DNA of 23,679 nt from a virus. The stretch covers positions 1-23,679 of IMG/VR virus record IMGVR_UViG_3300025701_000055, one strand, 5' to 3'. Below the pieces are notes generated by a model. That model was not told the DNA's origin. It saw only the letters and a list, made by a program, of their open reading frames with translations, and searched no databases. A program made the position numbers and the translations under genes. Position 1 is the first letter of the stretch. Each line of letters begins with the position of its first letter. Shown here in pieces: positions 3,408 through 18,030 of this stretch.

Positions 3408-3629
3408 ATGAAAAACTATGAAAAACTATTAGAAAGAATAGACACCCTTGGTGAAGAAATGCGTTACTATGGCAACCTTAGTGTTGACATGTTAAAACAT
3501 GAACTCAAAGTTAATAGCGACGTATTCTTTGCGGGTGCTAACATCTGTGGTTACTACAGTGACCAAGATGGTGGTGAAGTTGATGATGACTTTTATGGTT
3601 GTATTGTGGAAGAACTCCGGGAGTTTTAA
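3408..3629 (+). CDS. Hypothetical protein
   Basis: 73 residues starting MKNYEKLLERIDTLGEEM, with a helical N-terminus and an acidic C-terminus (DQDGGEVDDDFYGC). A GGAG ribosome site lies before ATG 3408. Its TAA overlaps the next ATG by one base, giving translational coupling. No known family recognised. Confidence 0.65.
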   Translation: MKNYEKLLERIDTLGEEMRYYGNLSVDMLKHELKVNSDVFFAGANICGYYSDQDGGEVDDDFYGCIVEELREF

Positions 3630-3820
3630 TGAAAAGTTTCAGCATAGCAATATTTGATAATGATTATAACGCATTGATAGATAGAGTCATAGTGAATGCT
3701 AAAGATAAAGGTTTAGTTGACACTTGGTGTCGTGAGCAGTCTTGGTCTGGATATGATTATATGTGTATCGAAGAACTTGACTTCGTTTCAAATAAAGCGG
3801 AGATTGAAATAAATGGATAA
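3629..3820 (+). CDS. Hypothetical protein
   Basis: 63 residues from ATG 3629, beginning MKSFSIAIFDNDYNALIDRV. An in-frame ATG at 3599 would extend it into the upstream gene, but the CGGGAG site five bases before 3629 and the one-base overlap favour the shorter form. A small alpha/beta protein containing DTWCREQSWSGYDYMC. No family recognised. Confidence 0.65.
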   Translation: MKSFSIAIFDNDYNALIDRVIVNAKDKGLVDTWCREQSWSGYDYMCIEELDFVSNKAEIEING

Positions 3821-4019
3821 GTTTTTACATTTAGTTTTATCGGCATATGTGGTGTTATTAATTTTAGACATACTCCGATCTTATTATCGTTACGACGAAC
3901 ATAAGTTTATGTCATTTGATAAGCCTACAGAGAAATGGTTTGATTTCTTTAAAGATGAACATAAATGGTCACTAGGTACTCTCATAGTGACACTGATATT
4001 AGGGATGTTATTCATATGA
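3813..4019 (+). CDS. Small two-helix membrane protein
   Basis: 68 residues. Hydrophobic helices lie at about residues 5-22 (HLVLSAYVVLLILDIL) and 53-68 (LGTLIVTLILGMLFI), separated by a charged loop of about 30 residues. The N-terminal Lys is weakly positive, so a hairpin with the loop in the cytoplasm or periplasm cannot be decided. It overlaps the preceding gene by 8 bases and the acyl-CoA dehydrogenase by 4 (ATGA). FadE of Escherichia coli is membrane-associated and the phage enzyme lacks that N-terminal segment, so a membrane partner role is conceivable. It could equally be holin-like. No motif decides. Confidence 0.65.
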   Translation: MDKFLHLVLSAYVVLLILDILRSYYRYDEHKFMSFDKPTEKWFDFFKDEHKWSLGTLIVTLILGMLFI

Positions 4020-5869
4020 TAAAAATGATAAAGAAAGTAATGCCTAAAATATCTGATACTGAACGTGCCGCACTTGAATGTGGCACAATCAGTATTGATG
4101 GTGATATATTCAAAGGAAATAAACCAGAAGTACGTAATCATCTTTCTTCTGTGCTCAATACAACCGAACAGAGATTCATCGATATTACTGTGCCTCAGTT
4201 GCTCGAACTTCAGACAGAGCATGGATATACAGAAGATAATAACTTGACACCACCTGTATGGGATTTTCTCAAAAAGAACAAGTTCTTTGCGATGATTATT
4301 CCTGTCGAGTATGGTGGGCTAGGGTTTTCTCCTTCTGCACAAAGTCAAGTTGTCACTAAGATTGCGTCTGCTGGTCATATCGGATTAGCAGTCACAGTAA
4401 TGGTTCCTAACTCTTTAGGTCCAGGTGAACTGTTGATGCACTATGGTACACAAGAACAACGTGACAAATATCTACCGAAACTTTCGTCAGGTGAAATGAT
4501 CCCATGTTTTGGATTGACAGGGTTATATAATGGTTCAGACGCCACAACATTAATCGATAATGCCAAGTCAATAGTCAAAAATGGTAAAGGCACGTATTCA
4601 GTCAATCTTAATAAACGATATATTACGTTAGCCCCTATTGCGGACCTTATCGGGATTGCTGTGAAAGTAGATGGTGAAATCACTTTATTTCTTATAGAAA
4701 GAGACCATCCTGGGCTACAGATTGGAGAAAGACATAATCCACTCGGTCAGCCATTTATGAATGGTACTATCAAAGGGCACATCGAACTCACTGATGAGCA
4801 TATCCTAGGCGGTAAAAAACAACTCGGAAAGGGTTGGCAAATGTTAGTTGAGTGTTTATCGGTTGGTCGTGCGATATCTTTACCTGCATTGGGTACAGCC
4901 GCATCTATCGTATCGGCAGTTGCGTCGGGTGCGTATGCACGTACACGTCAACAGTTCGGAATGCCTATCGCTAAAATGCAAGGCATACAAGAACCATTAG
5001 CAGATATTGCTTATCAGGCATATGTGAATACTGTAACACAAACCACAATCAACGGTGAACTACAAGCAGGTGAATCGCCTAGTGCGTTATCAGCGATGTG
5101 GAAGTATCAGTCAACCGAACGTGGGCGTATTGCTATCAATCATGCAATGGATGTAATGGCAGGTTCTGCGATACAAGAAGGACCTAATAACATTCTTGCT
5201 AATACCTATAAGAGTATGCCTATTGCGATTACTGTAGAAGGTGCGAATATTCTTTCACGTTCTTTAGTCACGTTCGGTGGTGGGCTTATGCGTTCGCACC
5301 CACATCTACGTAACTTGGTCGATTCGATACAAGATGAAAAAACTCTTTCGTTTTTAAAACATCTTTCATTAATGATTGGTCATACTGTGACAAACTTAGG
5401 TAAAGCACTTACCCGTAACGAATATGCATTATTTGCATTTACGAGTAATATGGTATTAACACTGGGTGCTAAGTATAAGCGTTCTGAATATATCAGTTCA
5501 CGTATGGCAGATATATTTTCGATACGTGTAATGCGTAGTGCTATTGACGAAGAACCCGAATCTGTTATTCGTGATTACTCACTGAAAAGATTACACAACG
5601 AAGAACTACAGGCATATAGAGACGTAGAGAATGAGTTACCTTTAGTTGCTGGTTTATTTGTTAGATTAGCACGTAAGATTAACTTTTTTAATACTAAACA
5701 TATCTCAGTAGAAGATAATGAAATGGCGGCTAATAGTATTACGTCTAAATCCACGTTTGTTAATAATATGATTAGTAAGATTCATATTTCAGGCAGACTC
5801 GCACAGTTGATTGACTGTTACACTAACGATACTCATGAACGAGAAGTTCAAGAAGTTGATAGTAAATAA
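4016..5869 (+). CDS. fadE: FadE-like acyl-CoA dehydrogenase (auxiliary metabolic gene)
   Basis: 617 residues from ATG 4016, overlapping the previous stop. FAD-dependent acyl-CoA dehydrogenases oxidise acyl-CoA to trans-2-enoyl-CoA in the first step of fatty-acid beta-oxidation. Stretches close to bacterial FadE are FFAMIIPVEYGGLGFS (90-105), TVMVPNSLGPGELLMHYGT (127-145), NKRYITLAPIADLIG (199-213), CLSVGRAISLPALGT (280-294), the second catalytic-domain region ARTRQQFGMPIAKMQGI (308-324), and PIAITVEGANILSRS (402-416). E408 corresponds to the general-base glutamate. FadE is about 815 residues; this version lacks the long N-terminal membrane region and has a shorter loop before NKRYITL, but it keeps a C-terminal extension of about 190 residues. 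The frame is intact throughout. It probably feeds host lipid catabolism during infection. The family assignment is strong; substrate length is unknown. Confidence 0.93.
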   Translation: MIKMIKKVMPKISDTERAALECGTISIDGDIFKGNKPEVRNHLSSVLNTTEQRFIDITVPQLLELQTEHGYTEDNNLTPPVWDFLKKNKFFAMIIPVEYGGLGFSPSAQSQVVTKIASAGHIGLAVTVMVPNSLGPGELLMHYGTQEQRDKYLPKLSSGEMIPCFGLTGLYNGSDATTLIDNAKSIVKNGKGTYSVNLNKRYITLAPIADLIGIAVKVDGEITLFLIERDHPGLQIGERHNPLGQPFMNGTIKGHIELTDEHILGGKKQLGKGWQMLVECLSVGRAISLPALGTAASIVSAVASGAYARTRQQFGMPIAKMQGIQEPLADIAYQAYVNTVTQTTINGELQAGESPSALSAMWKYQSTERGRIAINHAMDVMAGSAIQEGPNNILANTYKSMPIAITVEGANILSRSLVTFGGGLMRSHPHLRNLVDSIQDEKTLSFLKHLSLMIGHTVTNLGKALTRNEYALFAFTSNMVLTLGAKYKRSEYISSRMADIFSIRVMRSAIDEEPESVIRDYSLKRLHNEELQAYRDVENELPLVAGLFVRLARKINFFNTKHISVEDNEMAANSITSKSTFVNNMISKIHISGRLAQLIDCYTNDTHEREVQEVDSK

Positions 5870-5902
5870 AACCACTAGTATATAAAAAGGAAAAATAAAA
5901 TA

Positions 5903-6556
5903 ATGAGTCAAGTTAGTTTAGTATCATTATCTAAACCAAGTGCACATACAGGCTGTTCTACTGCCGAAGAGTTAGTAGCATATGCCGCACGTGTAAGTAA
6001 TCCCAATAATCAAAACAATACCGAGACTGCTCCACGATTGTTAAAGTATCTGATAAAACATGCGCATTGGTCGCCTCTTGAAATGGTACATATCACATTA
6101 GAGATTAAAACTACACGTGATATTAGTCGCCAGATTGTACGACATCGTTCGTTCTCGTTTCAGGAGTTCAGTCAACGTTATGCAGTAAGTGAAAACTTTG
6201 TTGAACGTGAAGCACGTCTACAAGATGAAACTAACAGACAGAACTCAGTTGAACTTGAAGAAGATGATAATATTCATCATGAGTGGTTACATGCACAAGG
6301 TCGTGTACGTTGGATGGCACAGAAAGAGTATGAAGCCGCATTGAAAATGGGCATTGCAAAAGAACAAGCACGTGCGTTATTGCCCGAAGGTCTTACAGAG
6401 ACTACATTATACATGGCAGGTTCGTTACGGTCTTGGGTACATTACTGTGATTTACGTATGGCTAATGGTACACAGAAAGAGCATATGGAAGTTGCAAAGC
6501 AATGTTGGGATATTATAGGGCAACACTTCCCGGCTGTTGTCGAAGCATTAGAGTAA
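5903..6556 (+). CDS. thyX: FAD-dependent thymidylate synthase ThyX
   Basis: 217 residues, a normal ThyX length. The ThyX signature RHRxxSxxxxSxR is present exactly at residues 80-92 (RHRSFSFQEFSQR). The C-terminal part has GSLRSWVHYCDLRMANGTQ, the usual substrate/flavin contact region. The enzyme makes dTMP from dUMP using methylene-tetrahydrofolate, NADPH and FAD. T4 itself uses a ThyA-type enzyme (td), whereas many marine T4-like phages carry thyX. With glutaredoxin and the MazG-like gene it forms the nucleotide-supply set. It starts 33 bases after fadE with an AAAAGGA site and no clear promoter of its own, so it may be read from the 3110 promoter. Confidence 0.97.
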   Translation: MSQVSLVSLSKPSAHTGCSTAEELVAYAARVSNPNNQNNTETAPRLLKYLIKHAHWSPLEMVHITLEIKTTRDISRQIVRHRSFSFQEFSQRYAVSENFVEREARLQDETNRQNSVELEEDDNIHHEWLHAQGRVRWMAQKEYEAALKMGIAKEQARALLPEGLTETTLYMAGSLRSWVHYCDLRMANGTQKEHMEVAKQCWDIIGQHFPAVVEALE

Positions 6557-6572
6557 TAAGAGGTGAAATAAA

Positions 6573-6815
6573 ATGAGTTTTAAATGGGATCGTGTATATA
6601 AAGCAGAAGAGTATTTCGACTCGTTGATAACAGAATATGCAATGGATTATATCATCGAGCATTATTCATTAGAAGACATCGAAGAGTTGACATACGAGCA
6701 AATGAAAGAAATTGAGCAATGGGAGTTCGATGAATCACCATATATTATGGGCATCGGTATTCGTAATGTTATTAACATGGCTGAATCCCGTTTAGCCGAA
6801 CTTATTGGAGAATGA
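6573..6815 (+). CDS. Hypothetical acidic protein
   Basis: 80 residues starting MSFKWDRVYKAEEYFDSLI, rich in Glu and predicted all-helical (EDIEELTYEQMKEIEQWEF). An AGAGGTGA site lies before ATG 6573. It sits between thyX and further small genes and ends in a TGA that overlaps a possible start of the next gene. No recognised domain. Confidence 0.65.
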   Translation: MSFKWDRVYKAEEYFDSLITEYAMDYIIEHYSLEDIEELTYEQMKEIEQWEFDESPYIMGIGIRNVINMAESRLAELIGE

Positions 6816-6817
6816 TA

Positions 6818-7018
6818 ATGAATACTGCAAACAATAAACCTTGGTTGTCACCCCATGGTCAATCAGTAGATATGGCAATGTGGGTAGTTGAGAACAAGTC
6901 TTATTTGTTAGAAACTGATGAGTATAAAACTAACACGACGATGCATCAATGGATTAAAGAGTCTCAAAAAATCATTGATGCGCATTATGAGTTAACAACA
7001 TCTGGTTGTGTACAATAA
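6818..7018 (+). CDS. Hypothetical protein
   Basis: 66 residues from ATG 6818 (MNTANNKPWLSPHGQSVDMA). ATG 6812 is also in frame, but GGAG at 6807-6810 is ideally spaced for 6818. Helical C-terminal half (TTMHQWIKESQKIIDAHYEL). No membrane segment or motif. Family unknown. Confidence 0.6.
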   Translation: MNTANNKPWLSPHGQSVDMAMWVVENKSYLLETDEYKTNTTMHQWIKESQKIIDAHYELTTSGCVQ

Positions 7019-7020
7019 TA

Positions 7021-7233
7021 ATGTTTAAAGAGGATGATAAACCAAAAGTTTATGTTCTAACCCAGGAAGGGCAGAATGTTAATGTTTATAACTGTTACAT
7101 CTCTGCCCTTAAAGCCGCAATCGAACATGTAACGATTGAACCAGATAACACCTTTGTCGATAGCCTTGAATATTTAATATATGTAGAAGGTGACAGAGGG
7201 CTAGTAACCATAACAGTAGAAGATTTATTATGA
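7021..7233 (+). CDS. Hypothetical protein
   Basis: 70 residues from ATG 7021 (MFKEDDKPKVYVLTQEGQ). No good ribosome site is visible; it starts two bases after the upstream stop, so it may rely on translational coupling. An upstream TTG at 7006 is a possible alternative. The sequence alternates strands and helices (VYVLTQEGQNVNVYNCY, then LKAAIEHVTI) and ends with VTITVEDLL. ATGA overlap with the MazG-like gene. Function unknown. Confidence 0.55.
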   Translation: MFKEDDKPKVYVLTQEGQNVNVYNCYISALKAAIEHVTIEPDNTFVDSLEYLIYVEGDRGLVTITVEDLL

Positions 7234-7505
7234 TTAACCGTGAACAACAAACACTGATTATAACAATGGAAGAGTGCGCAGAAGTTGCGCAGATGTGTAG
7301 TAAGATACTGCGCTTTAGACATATGGATAGTGAGTTACAGCATCAAGAAAAGACCATATTGTTAAGCGAAGAAGTTGGCGATTTACTATTGATGGTTGAC
7401 TTGCTTGCACGAGAAGGGTTGATTGACCTTGATGTTGCAATGAGTCACAGAGATGTGAAGAGACAAAAACTGTCTACATATAGTAACCTATTCGATGGAG
7501 ATTAA
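7230..7505 (+). CDS. MazG-like nucleotide pyrophosphohydrolase
   Basis: 91 residues, all-helical. The metal-binding pattern of the MazG/all-alpha NTP-pyrophosphatase superfamily is present: ExxE within MEECAEVAQ (residues 13-21) and ExxD within SEEVGDLLLMVDLL (46-59). These enzymes hydrolyse (d)NTPs to monophosphates and pyrophosphate, and phage versions have been linked to nucleotide pool control or to lowering alarmone signals. ATG 7230 overlaps the upstream stop. The short single-domain form is common in phages. Superfamily fairly certain; substrate not predictable. Confidence 0.8.
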   Translation: MINREQQTLIITMEECAEVAQMCSKILRFRHMDSELQHQEKTILLSEEVGDLLLMVDLLAREGLIDLDVAMSHRDVKRQKLSTYSNLFDGD

Positions 7506-7507
7506 CC

Positions 7508-7669
7508 ATGTGTAAAGAACATGTATTAGCAATACTAAATCAGCAGATAGAAAACCGATATAAAAAAATAGCAGAACATGATTCTGAAGGTACGCAACTT
7601 TATTTGGTTACAGTTGAGATAGCAACAATACAACAAATGATAAAAGAAATCGAAAAAAATATTAAATAA
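7508..7669 (+). CDS. Small hypothetical helical protein
   Basis: 53 residues, MCKEHVLAILNQQIENRYKK to EIEKNIK, from ATG 7508 with GGAG seven bases upstream and a TAA at 7667-7669. It starts two bases after the MazG-like stop. It is predicted helical, possibly a short coiled coil (TVEIATIQQMIKEIEKN). The product is too short for a family call. Confidence 0.6.
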   Translation: MCKEHVLAILNQQIENRYKKIAEHDSEGTQLYLVTVEIATIQQMIKEIEKNIK

Positions 7670-7683
7670 AAACATATTTTTTC

Positions 7684-7712
7684 TTGACAAGAACTCCTAG
7701 TTAACTTATAAT
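7684..7712 (+). promoter_or_regulatory. Consensus sigma70 promoter for gene 7746
   Basis: TTGACA (7684-7689), a 17-base spacer and TATAAT (7707-7712): a perfect match to the sigma70 consensus. Initiation would fall near 7719. The spacer and -10 box also form the left arm of a hairpin that covers the downstream ribosome site (see 7692-7742). Confidence 0.88.
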
Positions 7713-7742
7713 GATTATGTAAGTTGATTAAGGAGTTTTTTT
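7692..7742 (+). promoter_or_regulatory. Inverted repeat over promoter and ribosome site; terminator-like
   Basis: AACTCCT (7692-7698) pairs with AGGAGTT (7731-7737), and inside it AACTTA (7703-7708) pairs with TAAGTT (7720-7725). The arms are followed by a run of T (7736-7742). The right arm contains AGGAG, the ribosome site of ATG 7746. In readthrough RNA from upstream the hairpin would hide this site or terminate. RNA starting at the local promoter near 7719 lacks the left arm and would be translatable. Confidence 0.6.
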
Positions 7743-7745
7743 ATT

Positions 7746-7853
7746 ATGAATATTTTTACACCAGAAGCGTTACCAATATTAACCGTTGCGGTTTACTTAG
7801 GCATTTGTGCCGTAGTCTGGGCAATCAAAACACTTTACAACGAATTTAAATAA
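7746..7853 (+). CDS. 35-residue membrane peptide
   Basis: ATG 7746 to TAA 7851-7853. One hydrophobic helix spans about residues 9-27 (LPILTVAVYLGICAVVWAI) and is followed by a short tail KTLYNEFK. It is the first gene after a perfect sigma70 promoter and has AAGGAG upstream, so it should be highly expressed. The next gene follows after 11 bases. Tiny phage membrane proteins often alter host envelope processes, but no function can be read from this sequence. Confidence 0.65.
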   Translation: MNIFTPEALPILTVAVYLGICAVVWAIKTLYNEFK

Positions 7854-7864
7854 GGATTTATATC

Positions 7865-8308
7865 ATGAATATTGAAATAGTTGGCACTAAAAACAAAAAG
7901 TTGATTGCTTATATCGAACGTGTTTATGATTTCTTAGGTTTAATTGACACTTTCGCTTTTGTTGACTTTGAAATCACTAAAGAATGCGCAGGCGGTGCCG
8001 GTGGTTATTGTGACGGTGATGACGAAACTGTTAACATAGAAATCGCACGTCAAGACGCAATGGGGCGCATTCCCATGAAAAACTTAATGATAAACATTGC
8101 GCACGAAATGGTTCACGCCAGACAAATCGCAAGCGGTCGTTTGGTTAACCAAGGGTTCGTGCTTCGTAAAGACGACAACGGTCAGCAAGTTATGACTACA
8201 AAGCAAATCTTTGATGGCAAAGAATACGTCGGAGTTCGTTACGACGAACAACCTTGGGAAATCGAAGCATACAATCTTGAAGAAGTTATTTATGAAGTAT
8301 GCAAATAA
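7865..8308 (+). CDS. Putative zinc metallopeptidase (HExxH)
   Basis: 147 residues. HEMVH at residues 80-84, inside NIAHEMVHARQI, is a classical zincin motif with catalytic E81. EQPWEIEAY at 128-136 resembles the downstream glutamate region that supplies the third zinc ligand in gluzincin-type phage peptidases (E132 or E134). No signal peptide, so it would act in the cytoplasm; targets could be host or phage proteins. Like the small gene before it, it uses more C-ending codons than its neighbours. It sits in the operon driven by the consensus promoter at 7684. A metallopeptidase is likely; the exact family is open. Confidence 0.75.
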   Translation: MNIEIVGTKNKKLIAYIERVYDFLGLIDTFAFVDFEITKECAGGAGGYCDGDDETVNIEIARQDAMGRIPMKNLMINIAHEMVHARQIASGRLVNQGFVLRKDDNGQQVMTTKQIFDGKEYVGVRYDEQPWEIEAYNLEEVIYEVCK

Positions 8309-8323
8309 ATGAGGTGATAGACA

Positions 8324-8494
8324 ATGAAGAATCCAGTAGCAAAATATGCTAGACGATTTAATAAGTCAGTTGTTATGCAAGACAAGAAGAAAGAGATGAA
8401 GCGAACAGGTGGTCGTTGGAATCTTGATGATGATTTTTATGATAGCGCAGGTGGTTTTAATGAAAAAGTTGAGATACAGACTAGAAACAACTAA
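8324..8494 (+). CDS. Small basic conserved phage protein
   Basis: 56 residues, MKNPVAKYARRFNKSVVMQD to IQTRNN. GAGGTGAT lies upstream of ATG 8324. The MKNPVAK.AR.FNK start followed by a run of Lys (DKKKEMKR) is a pattern I remember from small proteins of many T4-like phages. The basic first half may bind nucleic acid. The 3' end overlaps the next gene by 35 bases in another frame. Confidence 0.7.
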   Translation: MKNPVAKYARRFNKSVVMQDKKKEMKRTGGRWNLDDDFYDSAGGFNEKVEIQTRNN

Positions 8495-8681
8495 CTGGAA
8501 TAATGTTGATTATAGCGTACCAAATCACATTTATATGACACATGGTACCGATTTATATGGATATATAAACATAGCAACTGGCGAAAAACAAATGTTCGTC
8601 AGACCTATGAAACAGTGGTCCGTAAAGGGCAGAACGTTTAAAGATATTAAAGATAGTGAAGTCGGAGAGTATTTGAAATGA
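8460..8681 (+). CDS. Hypothetical protein
   Basis: 73 residues from ATG 8460 (MKKLRYRLETTNWNNVDYSV). Upstream in-frame ATGs from 8409 would add a hydrophobic stretch that is really the frame-shifted 8324 gene. GGTGG before 8460 is the ribosome site. Beta-rich, with YGYINIATGEKQMFVRP. ATGA overlap with the cytidylyltransferase. Family not recognised. Confidence 0.6.
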   Translation: MKKLRYRLETTNWNNVDYSVPNHIYMTHGTDLYGYINIATGEKQMFVRPMKQWSVKGRTFKDIKDSEVGEYLK

Positions 8682-9145
8682 AAGTAGGTTTTACGTGTAG
8701 TACATTTGACTTGTTACATGCAGGTCATGTACAGATGTTACGTGATGCAAAAGAACATTGTGATTACTTGATATGTGGATTACAAGTAGATCCGTCTCAT
8801 GACAGATTAGAAAAGAATGCGCCCATTCAATCACTTGTCGAACGCTACACACAGTTGATGGCTTTAACATATGTTGATGAAATAATACCATACGAATCAG
8901 AAAACGATTTAAAGGATATTCTAGAACTGTATCATATAGATATACGTATACTTGGTGAGGAGTATCGTAATACTGATTTCACTGGTAAGGATATATGTCG
9001 CAAACGTGATATACAGTTATATTTCAACAAGCGAGACCATCGATTCAGTTCGAGTGACTTGCGCAGACGAGTGACACATAAAGAGAATGAAAAATGCACT
9101 GACAGTAAAAATCTTAGTGCAGAATCCGTGAGCGTGTTACTCTAA
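8678..9145 (+). CDS. TagD-like cytidylyltransferase
   Basis: 155 residues. The nucleotidyltransferase motif HAGH is at residues 14-17 (TFDLLHAGHVQML). The second signature, the ISTSxxR equivalent, is FSSSDLRRR at 123-131. These features and the length match the glycerol-3-phosphate/choline-phosphate/pantetheine-phosphate nucleotidyltransferase family, closest in look to TagD-type cytidylyltransferases. They join CTP (or ATP) to a phosphorylated alcohol, making an activated head group for envelope or glycan synthesis. Similar genes recur in marine phages. It overlaps the preceding gene by ATGA. The substrate cannot be inferred. Confidence 0.85.
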   Translation: MKVGFTCSTFDLLHAGHVQMLRDAKEHCDYLICGLQVDPSHDRLEKNAPIQSLVERYTQLMALTYVDEIIPYESENDLKDILELYHIDIRILGEEYRNTDFTGKDICRKRDIQLYFNKRDHRFSSSDLRRRVTHKENEKCTDSKNLSAESVSVLL

Positions 9146-9155
9146 CGAGGAACAA

Positions 9156-9650
9156 ATGCATAAAAATAAATACGATGTCAAAGTCTTAAAAGTAGTAGAC
9201 GGTGACACAGTAGATGTAGATATCAACTTAGGATTTGGTATCGTATTAACGGATGAGCGTGTACGTGTCATGGGTATCGATACACCAGAATCACGTACAT
9301 CTGATAAAGTCGAAGACTTGTTTGGTGAAGCCGCTAAGGCTCGTCTCAAAGAACTTATGAAAGGTCAAGTCAAACTTATCACAACAGAAGATAAGCATGG
9401 CGAAGATATGAAAGGTAAGTTTGGGCGAGTACTCGGTGACTTCGAAGTATATGACCATAAGCACGATAGATGGGCTTGTGTCACTGATATTCTAATCGAA
9501 GAAGGGCACGCAGTTGCATACTTCGGTGGTTCGAAAGATGAGATACAGGCGAAGCATATGGTTAATCGTCAGAAACTATTGCGTGAAGGAATCGTAACAC
9601 ACGAAGACTACGCAAAGGCTGAGAAGATTATGGAGCGTAAAAGAAAATGA
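9156..9650 (+). CDS. Staphylococcal nuclease-like thermonuclease
   Basis: 164 residues with the SNase (TNase) OB-fold signature: DGDTVDVDI at 15-23, RVMGIDTPES at 37-46 (R37, D42 and E45 match catalytic or calcium-binding Arg, Asp and Glu), and KGKFGRVLGD at 86-95, where R91 matches the second catalytic arginine. The helix ILIEEGHAVAYFG follows. Such enzymes cleave DNA and RNA to 3'-phosphates with calcium. There is no signal peptide, so the phage enzyme would work in the cytoplasm, perhaps to degrade host nucleic acid. GAGGA site before ATG; ATGA overlap with the lipoprotein gene. Confidence 0.92.
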   Translation: MHKNKYDVKVLKVVDGDTVDVDINLGFGIVLTDERVRVMGIDTPESRTSDKVEDLFGEAAKARLKELMKGQVKLITTEDKHGEDMKGKFGRVLGDFEVYDHKHDRWACVTDILIEEGHAVAYFGGSKDEIQAKHMVNRQKLLREGIVTHEDYAKAEKIMERKRK

Positions 9651-12164: not shown

Positions 12165-13100
12165 ATGGCTAATCTAGCAGGAAGAGAAATATACAAATAC
12201 GCTTTTCGTGTCGAAGTATTCATAAAGAAATACACGACTAAAGACCCGTTCACATTGGCGAATGGTAAGAAGGCTACTTTTGTTCCTAGCGAAGATGTTA
12301 TCAAAGCATTAAAGAATCAACAAGCAACAACTAAGTTAGAGTTATTATCAGAAGACGGTAAGACATACAAGTTTAAAGACTTGATGAAGACTGGCGAGTT
12401 TGGTGGTAAAGGTGCGGGCGGTTCGACTATCAAAGAAGATAGAGAACTTGCATCATTACGTCAACAACTAGCACAGATTAAAAAAGATACTGCTAGTGCT
12501 ACTGTTCCTGTCAAAGTAGGGCGTGAAATATATCATGTCGAAGATGCCGAATCTACACCCGGAACACCAAAGTCAGACTTTCACTTACTTGATGGTAATG
12601 GAAAAGAATGTGTTTGGATATCACACAAAGATGGTAGTAGACCACGAGACTTTCAACAGTGGGGCGGTATCTCACAACGTAAAGAACCAAAGATATTTAA
12701 TCACAAAGAAACACAAAAGTTTGTGTCTGACTTGAAAGAAATATTTCCTGATGGATTGCCTAGAGCAACATCATTGCATCGCAGAATAAAAGATAAGAAA
12801 CTAAAAATGTTATCAGTCTATGGTAACGAATATGACACAAATAGGTTGTCAAGGCAGAATACTTCTGTTATGATACAAGGGCCAGTTAACTTGGTGAATA
12901 AAGGTTCTTATTATGTTTTCGAATCAAATCATGTACACTATAATGGTGAATCTGTTGATGATGGTGGATTTGAGCCTGTATTCATGGCTATCTACAAAGG
13001 TGATAGAAGTGATGCTGGTGTCAAGGGTACACGTATCGTAATCATGCCTATTGATGGGCGTAAATCCAAAGAGTTTAACGAAGATAAGGTGATTAAATAG
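12165..13100 (+). CDS. Conserved phage protein, possible PD-(D/E)XK-like nuclease
   Basis: 311 residues from ATG 12165 (MANLAGREIYKYAFRVEVFI). An upstream ATG at 12159 has no room for a ribosome site, whereas ACGAGA is well placed for 12165. The first 130 residues are basic and partly coiled (RELASLRQQLAQIKK). The second part has TPKSDFHLLDGNGKECVWIS followed by HKDG and FQQWGGIS; this resembles the P-x-x-D ... (S/E)xK core of divergent phage PD-(D/E)XK nucleases, with Ser-His-Lys at the ExK position. A beta-rich C-terminal domain follows. First gene after a late promoter, and its TAG overlaps the GTG of the ligase-like gene. Relatives occur in T4-like marine phages, from memory. The nuclease call is tentative. 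Confidence 0.7.
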   Translation: MANLAGREIYKYAFRVEVFIKKYTTKDPFTLANGKKATFVPSEDVIKALKNQQATTKLELLSEDGKTYKFKDLMKTGEFGGKGAGGSTIKEDRELASLRQQLAQIKKDTASATVPVKVGREIYHVEDAESTPGTPKSDFHLLDGNGKECVWISHKDGSRPRDFQQWGGISQRKEPKIFNHKETQKFVSDLKEIFPDGLPRATSLHRRIKDKKLKMLSVYGNEYDTNRLSRQNTSVMIQGPVNLVNKGSYYVFESNHVHYNGESVDDGGFEPVFMAIYKGDRSDAGVKGTRIVIMPIDGRKSKEFNEDKVIK

Positions 13101-14320
13101 TGAACTTTTCAGAGTTTATCACAGAACAAAAAAATACGCATATGACACATCTAGAAGATAAAGTTCTTTATGGTGGTGTCGATGGTACACGTCAAGCAAT
13201 CTTTGCGTTACGTGATATGCGTGATATGCTTGCAGGTAAAAAAGCAAGTAAAGTCTCAGTCAAATGGGATGGTGCACCTGCTATTTTTGCGGGCACTGAT
13301 CCACGAGACGGCAAGTTCTTTGTGGCGAAGAAAGGTATCTTTAATAAGAATCCCAAAGTATATAAGACTAATCAAGAAATCGATGACGATACATCGGGTG
13401 ACTTGGCAGATAAACTTAAAGATGCATTGAAGTATCTACCTGAACTCGGTATTAAAGGTGTGATTCAAGGTGACTTCTTATTCGGTAAAGGCGATGTATC
13501 TAAAAAGAAAATAAATGGTGAGTCATTTGTGACTTTTCATCCAAATACGATTGTATATGCAGTTCCTGTTAGTCAAGCCAAAGAGATTATGAGCGCAAAA
13601 ATCGGTATTGTATGGCACACTAAATATACAGGTAACAGTTTTGAAACTATGAAAGCAGATTATGGCGTCAATGTTTCGAAGTTAAAAAAATCTAAAAACG
13701 TTTGGTCACAAGATGCTATGTTGCGTGATGTGACCAATGCAACTATGACTAAAAAAGAAACGGAGCAAGTGAATGAATATCTTTCAAAGATTGGCAAACT
13801 TTTTAACCAAACTTCTGGGACTACACTCAGAACCCTCGAATCAAACCAAGAACTCGCAAAACTCATCGAGCAGTTCAACAACACCTACGTCAGAAAAGGC
13901 GAAGTCGTCGGCAACACCGAAGCGCACACGAAAAAACTCATCAAATGGATCAGCGACCGCTACCAAAAAGAAATCGACAAGCGCAAAACCGAAAGGGGCA
14001 AGCAAGCCCAAGAAGCCAAGCGTAAAAAAATCCTCGACTTCTTCAGCGAAGAAAACAAAGTAAATCTTGCAAGAATGTTTGAGATGCAAAAACTTATGGT
14101 TTTAGCTAAACTCAAACTTATAAATAAACTTAATAGATTAAGTAATCTTGAAACTTTTGTTAAAACTAGCAAGGGTTTCAAGACTACTGGTCAAGAAGGT
14201 TATGTGGCAATAGACACATTTGGTGGTGATGCGGTGAAACTGGTTGACCGTATGGAGTTTTCATACAACAACTTTTCGCCAGATATTGTTAAAGGATGGG
14301 ATAAACCAACGAGGAACTAA
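13100..14320 (+). CDS. Divergent KxDG nucleotidyltransferase/ligase-like protein with capsid-targeting-like N-terminus
   Basis: 406 residues from GTG 13100. Ligase-superfamily motifs appear in order: motif I KWDG at 55-58 (K55 the would-be adenylated lysine), a GVIQGDFLFG stretch at 120-129 resembling motif III, motif IV EGYV at 366-369 and motif V VKLVDR at 379-384. That is the pattern of ATP-dependent DNA/RNA ligases. The N-terminus MNFSEFITE resembles the T4 capsid-targeting sequence MKTYQEFIAE with an I-x-E protease site. Residues 226-320 are a charged helical insert whose DNA also encodes another protein (13773-14063), and there the codons switch to almost purely C/A/G endings. May belong to the family listed as DUF6267. 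Ligase activity is an inference. Confidence 0.8.
   Translation: MNFSEFITEQKNTHMTHLEDKVLYGGVDGTRQAIFALRDMRDMLAGKKASKVSVKWDGAPAIFAGTDPRDGKFFVAKKGIFNKNPKVYKTNQEIDDDTSGDLADKLKDALKYLPELGIKGVIQGDFLFGKGDVSKKKINGESFVTFHPNTIVYAVPVSQAKEIMSAKIGIVWHTKYTGNSFETMKADYGVNVSKLKKSKNVWSQDAMLRDVTNATMTKKETEQVNEYLSKIGKLFNQTSGTTLRTLESNQELAKLIEQFNNTYVRKGEVVGNTEAHTKKLIKWISDRYQKEIDKRKTERGKQAQEAKRKKILDFFSEENKVNLARMFEMQKLMVLAKLKLINKLNRLSNLETFVKTSKGFKTTGQEGYVAIDTFGGDAVKLVDRMEFSYNNFSPDIVKGWDKPTRN
13773..14063 (+). CDS. Overprinted S/T/P/K-rich basic protein in the +1 frame of the ligase-like gene
   Basis: 96 codons from ATG 13773 to TAA 14061-14063, wholly inside the ligase-like gene in the +1 frame. CGGAG seven bases before the ATG is a proper ribosome site. 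The N-terminus MNIFQRLANFLTKLLGLHSE is an amphipathic helix. The rest is disordered and built of Ser, Thr, Pro, Ala, Lys and Asn, with many Lys-Pro and Ser-Ala-Lys steps as in linker-histone tails. In the overlap the host frame almost never uses T at codon position 3, although T is the favourite elsewhere. T there would put hydrophobic residues into this frame, so selection on this frame is likely. Possible roles are DNA binding or condensation in the head, or membrane interaction. Confidence 0.7.
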   Translation: MNIFQRLANFLTKLLGLHSEPSNQTKNSQNSSSSSTTPTSEKAKSSATPKRTRKNSSNGSATATKKKSTSAKPKGASKPKKPSVKKSSTSSAKKTK

Positions 14321-14322
14321 AA

Positions 14323-14769
14323 ATGGCAGATCCATTGTCTTTTAAAGACTTTTTAGCAGTCGATTATACTCCAGGCATGCCTGATTCAATCAGTTATGCG
14401 GCAAAGAAGCGCAAGCGTGGTGTGATTGGCGAAGACTCTCAAGAAACGAATGAAGCACTAGACTTTAATCAACGTAGAGCACGTGCACGTTCAATCAAGA
14501 AAAACAAAGCAAAGATTGCTATGGGTCGTCGTAGGGCGGCTAATAAGCAGGCGAGTCAGGATCGTTTGAAGAAACGGGCACGCAAGCAAGCAATGAATAC
14601 AGTATTCCAGAAACTGTCAAAGGGTGTTAAGCGTTCAGACTTACCTATGTCCCGTCGTCAGTCTATCGAAAAAAGGCTTGAAAAAATGAAGCCTAGAATC
14701 GATAAGATGGCGAGAAAGATGCTACCTTCGGTACGCAAAATGGAAAAAGAACGTAGACAGAGTAAATAG
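14323..14769 (+). CDS. Very basic conserved phage protein
   Basis: 148 residues. About a third of the residues are Lys or Arg in the helical part from about 50 on (RRARARSIKKNKAKIAMGRR, RKMLPSVRKMEKERRQSK). The start MADPLSFKDFLAVDYTPG carries an SFKDFL segment like the capsid-targeting-type N-termini of its neighbours, but has no clear (I/L)-x-E site. I recall relatives with the same layout in cyanophages and pelagiphages, function unknown. Strong basicity, late expression and this N-terminus fit a DNA-binding internal head protein. GAGG ribosome site; three bases after the ligase-like gene. Confidence 0.8.
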   Translation: MADPLSFKDFLAVDYTPGMPDSISYAAKKRKRGVIGEDSQETNEALDFNQRRARARSIKKNKAKIAMGRRRAANKQASQDRLKKRARKQAMNTVFQKLSKGVKRSDLPMSRRQSIEKRLEKMKPRIDKMARKMLPSVRKMEKERRQSK

Positions 14770-14777
14770 GATATTAA

Positions 14778-15824
14778 ATGTTTCCCTCATTCAAACAATA
14801 CTTAGTTGAAGAAGAAAGAGAAGTTTATTTTACTTTTGGTAGGATGAATCCGCCTACTATTGGGCATGGTAAGTTAATGAATGTTATGTCTGCAAAAGCA
14901 GGCAAGAATCCATACAAAGTTTACCTATCTTCATCTCAAGATTCAAAAAAGAATCCTCTGTCATACGAACAGAAGATTAAACATGCACGTAAGATGTTCC
15001 CAAAACATGCACGTAGTATTATTTTAAATAAAAAGTTAAAAAATGTATTTGATGTTGCTGTAGCACTATATGACCAAGGGTTTAATAAGATTAACATGGT
15101 TGTTGGTGCTGATAGAATAACAGAGTTTAAAACATTATTAGAGAAATATAATGGTAAGAAAGCCCGTCATGGCTTCTATAACTTTGAGAAGATTAATGTT
15201 ATTTCTGCGGGTGAGCGTGATCCCGATGCAGATGATGTAACTGGAATGAGCGCAAGTAAACAACGTAAGAATGCTGAAAATAATGATTTCGCAACATTCT
15301 CGCAAGGCGTTCCTAAAACCATGTCTAATCAAGATACGAAACGTTTATTCAATGATGTTCGTTCTGGTATGGGATTAAAAGAATCAAAGACATTTAAGAA
15401 TCATATCGAACTAGGACCTGTATCAGATATTCGAGAGAAGTATATCGAAGGGCAACTGTTCAACGAAGATGACCAAGTTGTTGTAAAAGCCACAGGTGAG
15501 ATGGGGCGTGTATTCCGTTTAGGAACGAACTACGTTATCGTCGAACTTGAAGAAGGGCGTATATCACGTCAATGGTTAAACTCAGTCGAGTTAGTCAGCG
15601 AAGTGATGAAAACAGATGACGGTACACCTGAAGCAACTCGAAAGATGAAGAAGAAGGTTCCAGGTCAAGAAGAAATACCTGTTGTTGAAGAAGACGAAGT
15701 TTCAATGGCACGTAAAAAGATTGAACTAGAAGTTGGTGCTGATAAAAGACGACACGATAAAATCTTAGATAGAGCACGTCTTGCTAGAGCAAAGCGCAAA
15801 AATCGTGAAACGAAAGTTGATTAA
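14778..15824 (+). CDS. HxGH-type nucleotidyltransferase with KOW-like domain
   Basis: 348 residues. Domain 1 (about 14-185) is a cytidylyltransferase/NMN adenylyltransferase-like Rossmann domain: GRMNPPTIGH at 21-30 is the phosphate-binding (T/H)xGH motif, VVGADRITEF at 108-117 and TGMSASKQR at 155-163 is the ISSTxxR-like signature. Domain 2 (about 225-275), FNEDDQVVVKATGEMG and YVIVELEEGRISRQWL, resembles a KOW/SH3 barrel. A charged helical tail follows. The N-terminus MFPSFKQYLVE has the F-x-x-[FY]-[IL]-x-E capsid-targeting pattern. Possible substrates are NMN, nucleotidyl phosphates or a nucleic acid; the sequence does not say. Late gene in the same operon as the ligase-like protein. Confidence 0.85.
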   Translation: MFPSFKQYLVEEEREVYFTFGRMNPPTIGHGKLMNVMSAKAGKNPYKVYLSSSQDSKKNPLSYEQKIKHARKMFPKHARSIILNKKLKNVFDVAVALYDQGFNKINMVVGADRITEFKTLLEKYNGKKARHGFYNFEKINVISAGERDPDADDVTGMSASKQRKNAENNDFATFSQGVPKTMSNQDTKRLFNDVRSGMGLKESKTFKNHIELGPVSDIREKYIEGQLFNEDDQVVVKATGEMGRVFRLGTNYVIVELEEGRISRQWLNSVELVSEVMKTDDGTPEATRKMKKKVPGQEEIPVVEEDEVSMARKKIELEVGADKRRHDKILDRARLARAKRKNRETKVD

Positions 15825-15826
15825 CA

Positions 15827-15834
15827 TATAAATA
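15827..15834 (+). promoter_or_regulatory. T4-type late promoter
   Basis: TATAAATA, exact consensus, followed by AAAC. It lies 3 bases after the nucleotidyltransferase stop and 29 bases before GTG 15863. Confidence 0.85.
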
Positions 15835-15862
15835 AAACTATAAAAACATTCAAGGAACAAAC

Positions 15863-16654
15863 GTGAAATCATTCTCAGAACTATCAGAAAAACTAAAGAA
15901 GGACAAAGATGATCCTTGCTGGAAAAACTATGTTCAAGTAGGTACTAAGAAAAAGAATGGCAAAGAAGTGCCTAACTGTGTGCCCAAAGAAGAAGTATCA
16001 GAAGAAAAAGATGAACCTGCATCACCTGACGAAGGTTCAATGGCTAAGACTCAACTAGAGTTTATTGCATATGCCGCAAAAGAAATCGAAGAACATATCT
16101 CTTCGGGTGGTAAGTTTCCTGAGTGGATGCAGAACAAGTTATCTGGTGCACATGAGAAAATGAAAGGGCTACATGCATCGATGGGCGACCATGGTGGTGA
16201 TGATGATGACGAAGAAGAAGTTAAAGAAGCAACTACTGGTCGTGCAGGTGTAAAGTGTTCAGGTAAGAAGTCACAGTTTGGTGGTTACACTCCAACATGT
16301 ACTAGAGACGGTAAAGGTGTTTACTCTGCACAACAGTCATACAAAGATGCAGGTACAGCAAAGAAACATGCAGAAGTATATGCTGATGCGTATTATGCAT
16401 ATGGCGACAGACCAGCACAGAAAGCAGTACGTGATTTCGTTGCTAAGAATAAGTCTAAGTTACATACTAAGAACGAGTCTGTTGAAGAAGGTAAACTACC
16501 ACCACATCTATCTAAGTTCTTTGATAAGAAAGGCAACTTAAATAAAGATGCTGAAGAACGTGTAAAACAAGGTAGAAAGAAACGTGGGCTTGATCCTCAG
16601 ACTGGTAAGAAACTAAAGTCTGTCAGAGAAGCAAGACGCAGTGGCAATGATTAG
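15863..16654 (+). CDS. Conserved modular late phage protein with capsid-targeting-like N-terminus
   Basis: 263 residues from GTG 15863, with AAGGA upstream. The N-terminus MKSFSELSEKLKK has F4, E6 and L-x-E at 7-9. It is followed by DPCWKNYVQVGTKKKNGK and VPNCVP, a motif I remember from late proteins of marine T4-like phages. Next comes GSMAKTQLEFIAYAAKEI, another recurrent phage module, then an acidic run (GGDDDDEEE), a small Cys-containing module GVKCSGKKSQFGGYTPTC, and a basic tail ending SVREARRSGND. The modular build of short conserved motifs joined by charged linkers suggests a head-associated or internal protein. Own late promoter at 15827. Confidence 0.75.
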   Translation: MKSFSELSEKLKKDKDDPCWKNYVQVGTKKKNGKEVPNCVPKEEVSEEKDEPASPDEGSMAKTQLEFIAYAAKEIEEHISSGGKFPEWMQNKLSGAHEKMKGLHASMGDHGGDDDDEEEVKEATTGRAGVKCSGKKSQFGGYTPTCTRDGKGVYSAQQSYKDAGTAKKHAEVYADAYYAYGDRPAQKAVRDFVAKNKSKLHTKNESVEEGKLPPHLSKFFDKKGNLNKDAEERVKQGRKKRGLDPQTGKKLKSVREARRSGND

Positions 16655-16970
16655 ATTCAGAGAATACGTTGAACAATGCTGTGATGATTGTATTCAAGAA
16701 GCGGCAGAATACCAGGGTAAGAAAGTTACTCTGAATGACCCTATTCGCACACCCGAAGGACCTAAGAAGTTCAAGGTATATGTGAAAAACGAAAAGGGTA
16801 ATGTTGTAAAGGTTACTTTCGGCGATCCCGAAAGTGAGATAAAGAGAGACGATCCTGAACGTCGAAAGTCGTTTAGGGCTAGACATAATTGTGATAACCC
16901 GGGCCCAAAAACTAAAGCAAGATACTGGTCTTGCTATCAGTGGCGCAAAGGTTCTAAAGTAAATAATTGA
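16647..16970 (+). CDS. Conserved small late phage protein
   Basis: 107 residues from ATG 16647 (MIRFREYVEQCCDDCIQEAA), overlapping the previous gene by 8 bases. A GTG at 16641 adds only two residues. The main block KKVTLNDPIRTPEGPKKFKV, then VYVKNEKGNVVKVTFGDP, RARHNCDNPGPKTKARYWS and CYQWRKG is very well conserved in my memory of marine T4-like phages. N-terminal F4, E6, Y-V-E 7-9 match the capsid-targeting-like pattern of the cluster. Cys residues (CCDDC, HNC, SCY) could bind a metal. A function is not known to me. Confidence 0.8.
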   Translation: MIRFREYVEQCCDDCIQEAAEYQGKKVTLNDPIRTPEGPKKFKVYVKNEKGNVVKVTFGDPESEIKRDDPERRKSFRARHNCDNPGPKTKARYWSCYQWRKGSKVNN

Positions 16971-17373: not shown

Positions 17374-18030
17374 ATGTCTGAAATGAAAAAGTTAATGGAG
17401 GCATACCAGTCAATGAAAGTCTCCGACGTAGAACAAGTCAACGAAGACGTTGAACTTGAAGAGAAGAAACTTGACCCAGTAGACGATAAAGAGTTGAAAG
17501 GCAAGCACAAAGACCGTAAAGATAAAGATATCGACAACGATGGTGATGTTGATTCGTCTGATGAATATCTTCACAAACGTCGTAAGGCTATTAAGAAGTC
17601 GAACGACCAAGAAGAAAAAGATACAGTCGAAGAAAAGAAAAAGAGAGCCTGTGAATCAGTATCTCATTCTAAATGGGGATTTGGCGAAGTCATCGAAGAG
17701 AATGACGAAGGTCTAAACATCTACTTCGAGCATGGTGTTGAGTTCGGTGTTGCACGTGAAGACGTTGTAGTACATGAAAGTAAAACACATAAAGAGCGTA
17801 CAAAGAGTGCGACTGATGCAGAAGAAATGGATAGTAAGTTATCTGTAGGTGCGAAACGTTTCAAGAAAATGCATACTGATAATGTAGAAGTTGATGATAC
17901 ATTAGAGAAAGCAAAGAAAGACGTTCAGAAAGCGGGTAAAGCATTACCAAGTCAATCACCTACACGTGGTGGTGAGAAGCGTATTGGCGACAAAGCTCCT
18001 ATCAATAAACAAAAAGATATCACTAAGTAA
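17374..18030 (+). CDS. Conserved late phage protein with dockerin-like calcium loop
   Basis: 218 residues from ATG 17374, with AAAGGAG upstream; the open frame extends left to 17290 but has no ribosome site there. Residues 52-64, DIDNDGDVDSSDE, form a canonical DxDxDG calcium-binding loop followed by YLHKRRKAIKK, a pair common in T4-like marine phages as I remember. A small beta module (SKWGFGEVIEENDEG, NIYFEHGVEFGVA) lies at about 105-140, and a Lys-rich disordered tail ends in INKQKDITK. The N-terminal MSEMKKLMEAYQSMK helix is only weakly like the capsid-targeting pattern. Likely virion- or prohead-associated. Confidence 0.75.
   Translation: MSEMKKLMEAYQSMKVSDVEQVNEDVELEEKKLDPVDDKELKGKHKDRKDKDIDNDGDVDSSDEYLHKRRKAIKKSNDQEEKDTVEEKKKRACESVSHSKWGFGEVIEENDEGLNIYFEHGVEFGVAREDVVVHESKTHKERTKSATDAEEMDSKLSVGAKRFKKMHTDNVEVDDTLEKAKKDVQKAGKALPSQSPTRGGEKRIGDKAPINKQKDITK

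Follow-up and report, generated by a model that had tools for sequence, protein, structure and literature searches.

A probable T4-type capsid-targeting leader on enzymes of T4-like phages from environmental waters

Background

Bacteriophage T4 loads a set of internal proteins (IPI-IPIII) into its head by means of a short N-terminal leader, and for IPIII the ten residues at the N-terminus (MKTYQEFIAE) are enough for packaging (PMC9026906). Residues 4 and 7 of this leader target the protein, residues 8 and 10 are needed for cutting by the protease gp21, Asp at position 10 gives targeting without cutting, and T4 leaders span 10 to 19 residues (PMC9026906). The ADP-ribosyltransferase Alt is packed in the T4 head, trimmed by gp21 and injected (PMC9026906), and the T4 internal proteins of known function are anti-restriction proteins (PMC12373910). 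In the present work, we examine a virus fragment of 23,679 nucleotides (IMG/VR record IMGVR_UViG_3300025701_000055; hereafter the window, meaning this whole stretch, which is without head genes) and a run of its genes whose products begin in a similar way, among them a DUF6267 protein and a nucleotidyltransferase. For these genes its closest annotated relatives are Phage C48C1 (whose DUF6267 is 68% identical), Methylophilales phage Melnitz, Pelagibacter phage HTVC008M and T4-like cyanophages, mostly Kyanoviridae.

Enzymes have been reported in purified particles of such cyanophages. The cytidylyltransferase T4-GC190 was reported in S-SM1 virions and not previously in S-PM2 virions (Sullivan et al. 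2010; PMC3037559), the virion list of S-SZBM1 includes the transferase gp140 (PMC9146016) and that of S-SCSM1 an NMNAT (PMC9602691). The 52 virion proteins of S-CREM2 include an S-adenosylmethionine (SAM) hydrolase, an APH-like kinase, a cytidylyltransferase and a Cas9-like protein (PMC10665884).

We consider it highly probable that the N-terminal 9-11 residues of the window enzymes are a T4-type capsid-targeting sequence, by which the enzyme would be loaded into the prohead, cut free and injected. Leaders of this kind are known in T-even phages; the novelty lies in which phages carry them here and in how broad and of what kind their cargo is.

The leader in the proteins of the window

The genes and segments concerned are the following.

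13100..14320 (+): DUF6267 protein, 406 amino acids; PF19782, E=7e-106; ligase-like motifs KWDG 55-58, EGYV 366-369 and KLVDR 380-384
13100..13126 (+): DUF6267 tag MNFSEFITE; F3 and F6 at the targeting positions, I7 and E9 at the processing positions; predicted cut after E9
14323..14769 (+): very basic protein, 148 amino acids; phrog_23027
14335..14364 (+): tag-like LSFKDFLAVD, residues 5-14 of the 14323 protein; both aromatics present; V, then D, in place of the Glu
14778..15824 (+): HxGH nucleotidyltransferase, 348 amino acids; phrog_395/3041; PPAT/NaMNAT-like fold; annotated in relatives as cytidylyltransferase
14778..14810 (+): transferase tag MFPSFKQYLVE; F5, Y8, L9 and E11; predicted cut after E11
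15863..16654 (+): 263-amino-acid protein starting MKSFSELSE; weak variant F-x-x-L-x-E, one residue short
16647..16970 (+): protein of 107-109 amino acids, MIRFREYVE; phrog_7595; both aromatics present; GTG 16641 as an alternative start of the reading frame
16692..16700 (+): predicted cut site I16-Q17-E18 of the 16647 protein, directly before the conserved AAEYQGKKV domain

All the N-terminal strings that the original prediction had listed, at 13100, 14323, 14778, 15863 and 16647, were found in the window. The start codon is GTG for MNFSEFITE, where it is the only one available, and for MKSFSELSE, while MIRFREYVE begins at an internal ATG. The original reading of these strings as capsid-targeting sequences holds to different degrees. 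It is strong for the 13100 and 14778 proteins, the only ones that follow the T4 rule in full (a pair of aromatics spaced by three, then I/L, any residue and E), with the complete pattern F-x-x-[FY]-[IL]-x-E; compared with T4, one residue fewer precedes the first aromatic in the former and one more in the latter. It is partial for the 16647 protein, which has both aromatics but its good cleavage site further in, and whose homologues retain [ILV]-x-E right before EYQGKKV. It is partial too for the 14323 protein, in whose family (61 distinct members) F-K-D-F-x-x-V-D prevails and a few members read FKQFISE or FRTFVSE; because V-D replaces the Glu, and Asp at position 10 of the T4 leader permits targeting but blocks cutting, this protein is predicted to be targeted yet uncut. 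For the 15863 protein the case is weak.

Fixed positions on a detachable peptide

Among 52 distinct DUF6267 N-termini, the P1 Glu and the I/L at P3 occur in all 52, F at P7 in 49 and F/Y at P4 in 47, while P6 and P5 take many residues. In the transferase, F5, L9 and E11 are invariant over 15 aligned relatives. The codons at the fixed positions of the DUF6267 tag differ synonymously, and therefore it is the peptide, not the DNA, that is conserved.

The same families also exist without the leader. The DUF6267 tag is not present in P-HM2, S-SZBM1 and S-PM2; the protein starts MSKNTHLEH in P-HM2 and MAKNTHLEH in S-SZBM1, compared with MNFSEFITE-QKNTHMTH in the window. The P-HM2 transferase likewise starts MKKVYVTFGRLNPPTIGH, against MFPSFKQYLVE-EEREVYFTFGRMNPPTIGH in the window, and the homologues of the 16647 protein in the small-genome phages Aegir (MAKYQGRTV) and CRP-902 (MATYKGKSV) start at the cut point predicted for the window protein. 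In AlphaFold2 models the leader is of low confidence, with low values of the predicted local distance difference test (pLDDT) for DUF6267 residues 1-16. The original prediction had proposed that homologues be inspected for a detachable motif on unrelated proteins, and this is what they display: untagged homologues begin where the tag ends, and the tag recurs on about 72 families. It had also held that homologues lacking the motif would speak against it. Such homologues exist, but they go with lineage and lack the leader cleanly, in keeping with a detachable tag.

The pattern against chance

A strict pattern, ^M.{1,3}[FYW]..[FYWHLM][ILVM].E, was applied to 80 related IMG/VR contigs, the three longest of which were read whole; gene starts in unannotated contigs came from a simple gene caller. 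It occurs at 167 of 1639 distinct protein starts, as against 7 of 7839 internal methionines, and four rearranged control patterns gave 0-4 matches. Counted by family, 23 of 715 carry it, compared with 0-3 for the controls. The core pattern starts at residue 4 in 13.1 families per draw, compared with an average of 0.23 for each of the later positions; this peak is more than 50 times the background and lies at the same location as in T4. In the three long relatives the pattern is present at 11 of 523 called genes and at 4 of 2393 internal methionines, and the same expression run over 40-85 kb of T4 retrieves ipII and ipIII only. A degenerate DNA pattern for MKxFKx[FY]IxE has at least 130 matches in IMG/VR, 106 of the 130 among the matches listed being at starts of open reading frames (ORFs), whereas a control with two codons swapped, for which IMG/VR was scanned to the end, yielded 69 matches, 25 of them at ORF starts.

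Cargo families and the prohead protease

The pooled tagged proteins fall into about 72 groups with no detected similarity beyond residue 12. They include an adenylate kinase (PF00406, 3e-41), an ART-PolyVal protein (1e-23; contig L208), HD_4 (4e-16), HicA with DUF6321, a zeta-toxin-like P-loop protein, a polynucleotide-kinase-like HAD protein and, slightly below the cut-off, an RNA_ligase-like protein. Judged by eye, the motifs of several further tagged proteins resemble those of PD-(D/E)XK nucleases. Contig L193 holds seven tagged genes at 3442-9422 (-), six of them adjacent but for small gaps, beside the tail tube and sheath genes; we predict that this cassette is a dense set of head cargo, two genes of which look ART-like by eye. 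The tagged HD_4 hydrolase (L134 279-842) and the tagged HicA-like protein (L147 12007-12630) are candidate injected regulators of host growth.

The gp21-type protease Peptidase_S77 (PF03420) scores over its cut-off in four of nine related records, including the three longest. In relatives, gp23 has L-T-E or L-N-E near the expected maturation point (of the type L-T-E followed by A), and gp21 starts MKLI[ATS]E; from these sequences, the protease very likely has T4-like specificity.

Some further segments may also be head-related. Directly before gp21, three relatives have a small gene (e.g. G002:C1:94398-94604) starting MRSFKEIREA, MKTFQQIREA or MKTLKNLREA; this F-x-x-I-x-E variant resembles the 15863 protein, and its product may be a protein of the core, like T4 gp67/gp68. 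A second shared N-terminus, approximately xxMEAYLxMVSE, occurs at window 17374-18030 and in its relatives, recurs in a related family and may be another head-targeting helix; S-SCSM1 gp92, annotated as a virion protein, looks similar to these proteins. The virion protein S-SCSM1 gp93 (L319 36627-36836) has a tag-like segment at its C-terminus, KKRTFKEFLEYIE, and T4 gp21 and Alt are likewise trimmed C-terminally.

Tagged homologues in virions

The expression had been settled before the cyanophage genomes were examined. Presence in virions, as originally suggested for the window proteins, has been reported by others for homologues of the nucleotidyltransferase: those in the virion data for S-SM1, S-SZBM1, S-SCSM1 and S-CREM2 are all four tagged, with the starts MKKFSAFLNE-A (GC190), MRFRQFIIE-A (gp140), MKSFLQFLKE-A (NMNAT) and MKNFSSFLTE (cytidylyltransferase). 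The S-PM2 gene named GC190 is fused behind the second half of DUF6267 and is untagged. The S-SZBM1 DUF6267 protein gp141, next to gp140, is untagged and missing from the virion list. In S-CREM2, the SAM hydrolase (MKDFDSFLEE) and the kinase (MKRFDAFLTE) are tagged as well, and in the Cas9-like protein the pattern sets in at residue 19 (KPLRFASFMAE). Three of the 219 coding sequences of this phage match the expression, and all three are among its 52 reported virion proteins (Fisher p=0.013); grouping the four enzymes gives p=2e-7, a value to be taken with caution since the grouping was post hoc. In the accessible parts of the S-CREM2, S-SCSM1, S-SZBM1 and S-SM1 studies we found no targeting signal proposed. 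A literature search linking capsid-targeting sequences with cyanophages returned a T4 review only; many subscription papers and preprints lay outside it, and an earlier description is possible.

Several observations weigh against the capsid-targeting interpretation. The virion data concern homologues of the 14778 protein in four other phages, not the window phage or a tagged DUF6267. The authors on S-CREM2 (PMC10665884) and S-SCSM1 (PMC9602691) consider encapsidation or carry-over of abundant cell proteins and do not exclude the latter. The same gene clusters also encode virion proteins without a tag (S-SCSM1 gp90, gp92 and gp97; S-CREM2 gp156 and gp160), and the non-T4 phage S-CBWM1 has an NMNAT that carries none. 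In HTVC008M homologues the tags are degenerate or gone. Peptidase_S77 occurs in 8 of 16 tag-bearing contigs and 3 of 15 control contigs, a difference that is non-significant alone (p=0.08). The untagged virion proteins and the untagged S-CBWM1 NMNAT imply that the tag is one route, not the sole or universal one. Between encapsidation and carry-over, the leader favours the former.

Alternative explanations

The shared beginnings could be thought a product of chance or of the composition of start regions rich in MK and hydrophobic residues, and MK starts are indeed common in AT-rich phages; the near absence of matches to rearranged patterns of the same composition and at internal methionines makes this hardly credible. 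Nor do we find it at all probable that the genes arose by duplication from a single internal protein and diverged, the shared start being an ancestral remnant and not a selected tag. They are clustered, as duplicates might be, but the cargo proteins have unlike folds (ligase-like, HxGH transferase, adenylate kinase, HAD, ART, HD), a common core fold beyond residue 12 is largely missing among the tagged families, spacer residues vary freely around four fixed positions, and the tag is wholly missing in homologues elsewhere.

A less remote, though still improbable, explanation is that the N-terminus serves assembly elsewhere or for another purpose (tail, baseplate or membrane), the proteins being structural or stuck outside, uncut and uninjected. 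Some tagged genes do lie near late structural genes, as in L193, and proteomics is unable to separate inside from outside. The constrained positions, however, are exactly those for targeting and processing in T4, the P1 Glu has no part in mere docking, and the tagged S-CREM2 virion proteins are enzymes of the soluble type. For part of the set we entertain, tentatively, a refinement that accepts both the tag and the packaging but has some of the proteins, foremost the 14323 protein, stay uncut as DNA-binding core proteins of the head instead of being injected effectors. The strong basicity of this protein and the V-D that replaces Glu in nearly all members of its family agree with this, given the effect of Asp at position 10 in T4, while the few members with ISE or VSE at the site do not.

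Proposed mechanism and cargo function

Under the capsid-targeting interpretation, and by analogy with T4 as regards scaffold binding, cutting, location in the head and injection, the two aromatics of the leader would bind the scaffold core during head assembly, and the enzyme would in this way be incorporated into the prohead. A gp21-type prohead protease would then cleave after the Glu of (I/L)-x-E and release the enzyme, DNA would be packaged around it, and at infection it would exit with the DNA and be active before any phage gene is expressed.

The protein that had been called ligase-like does look so. DUF6267 has motifs I (KxDG), IV (EGxV) and V (KxVxR), with K55, D57, E366, G367, V369, K380, V382 and R384 invariant. 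A second look at its model with VIA returned mostly RNA editing ligase, Trl1, T4 Rnl1/Rnl2 and DNA ligases at Z 5.5-7.3; the best match (Z 7.3 over 186 residues, root-mean-square deviation 4.1) stays below the level that the tool calls safe. Foldseek comparison of the same model (pLDDT 70) with structures gave no match at E<0.001, and sequence searches of solved structures were of no use for either DUF6267 or the transferase. The 14778 protein, predicted to be a nucleotidyltransferase, belongs to the HxGH superfamily (PPAT/NMNAT) by motif and Rossmann-like fold: in GRMNPPTxGH, residues G21, R22, M23, N24, P25, P26, T27, G29 and H30 are invariant, and the best Foldseek matches are PPAT and nicotinate nucleotide adenylyltransferases (E from 9e-5, probability 1.00).

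For the cargo here, a ligase-like and a PPAT/NMNAT-like nucleotidyltransferase together with small basic proteins, our best guess is that it acts early, either on RNA, NAD or nucleotides of the host or against its defences. If delivered at time zero, the ligase-like and NMNAT-like enzymes could mend host tRNA or DNA that defence systems have cut, or they could restore NAD. PADLOC, tried on the cargos, gave a convincing defence match in none. Sealing or repair of the incoming DNA is a possible guess that nothing in the analysis favours.

We also think it likely, if with less assurance than for the window enzymes, that the leader is a loading code in general use among T4-like phages from environmental waters and readable from sequence, a start of the MKxFKxFIxE type marking head cargo delivered at time zero. 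Were this so, marine T4-like phages would have a simple N-terminal signature for proteins injected before gene expression, and a search for the leader would turn up dozens to hundreds of families of injected effectors, many of unknown function, among them ADP-ribosyltransferases, RNA-ligase-like enzymes, kinases, an HD hydrolase, HicA-like proteins and possible nucleases. Counter-defence and host-takeover enzymes would be expected in this class. The tag would also explain the puzzling occurrence of NMNAT-like transferases, kinases and SAM hydrolases in purified cyanophage particles.

Other features of the window

An acyl-CoA dehydrogenase, unusual for a phage, is encoded at 4016-5869; its Pfam domains (N-terminal, middle and C-terminal) all score above the cut-off. 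Residues 17-45 of the protein at 15863-16654 form a small module (DPCWKNYVQVG-KNGKEVPNCVP) that also occurs in cyanophages, Melnitz and haloarchaeal viruses, in proteins that are different in other respects. An alternative-frame ORF inside DUF6267 (13773-14063, +; 96 codons, Lys/Ser-rich, in a more GC-rich stretch) is probably due to chance: among 66 distinct relatives its length is 80-99 codons in about half and 3-77 in the rest, and its ATG falls within codons of a conserved V-N-E stretch.

Comparison with known systems

To our knowledge, the repair enzymes of T4 are made after infection and are not head cargo, which sets them apart from DUF6267 as interpreted here; in its KxDG, EGxV and KxVxR motifs and, at Z values below the safe level, in its structural neighbours, DUF6267 resembles T4 Rnl1/Rnl2. 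The tagged polynucleotide-kinase-like HAD and zeta-like P-loop proteins of the relatives similarly recall the T4 polynucleotide kinase-phosphatase. With Alt, the tagged ART-PolyVal protein of L208 offers a parallel, whereas the window cargo consists of nucleotidyltransferases. The virion enzymes of S-CREM2, S-SCSM1, S-SZBM1 and S-SM1 share both the nucleotidyltransferase family and the tag with the window; unlike the present interpretation, those studies give presence and leave carry-over open. The closest likeness is to T4 IPI-IPIII: F/Y-x-x-F-I/L-x-E at residues 3-11, one leader on many unrelated bodies, small basic members and a gp21-type protease, here in relatives. Unlike the T4 internal proteins, the leader stands here on large conserved enzymes of marine Kyanoviridae-like phages, its N-terminal length is variable and some of its versions are apparently uncleavable.

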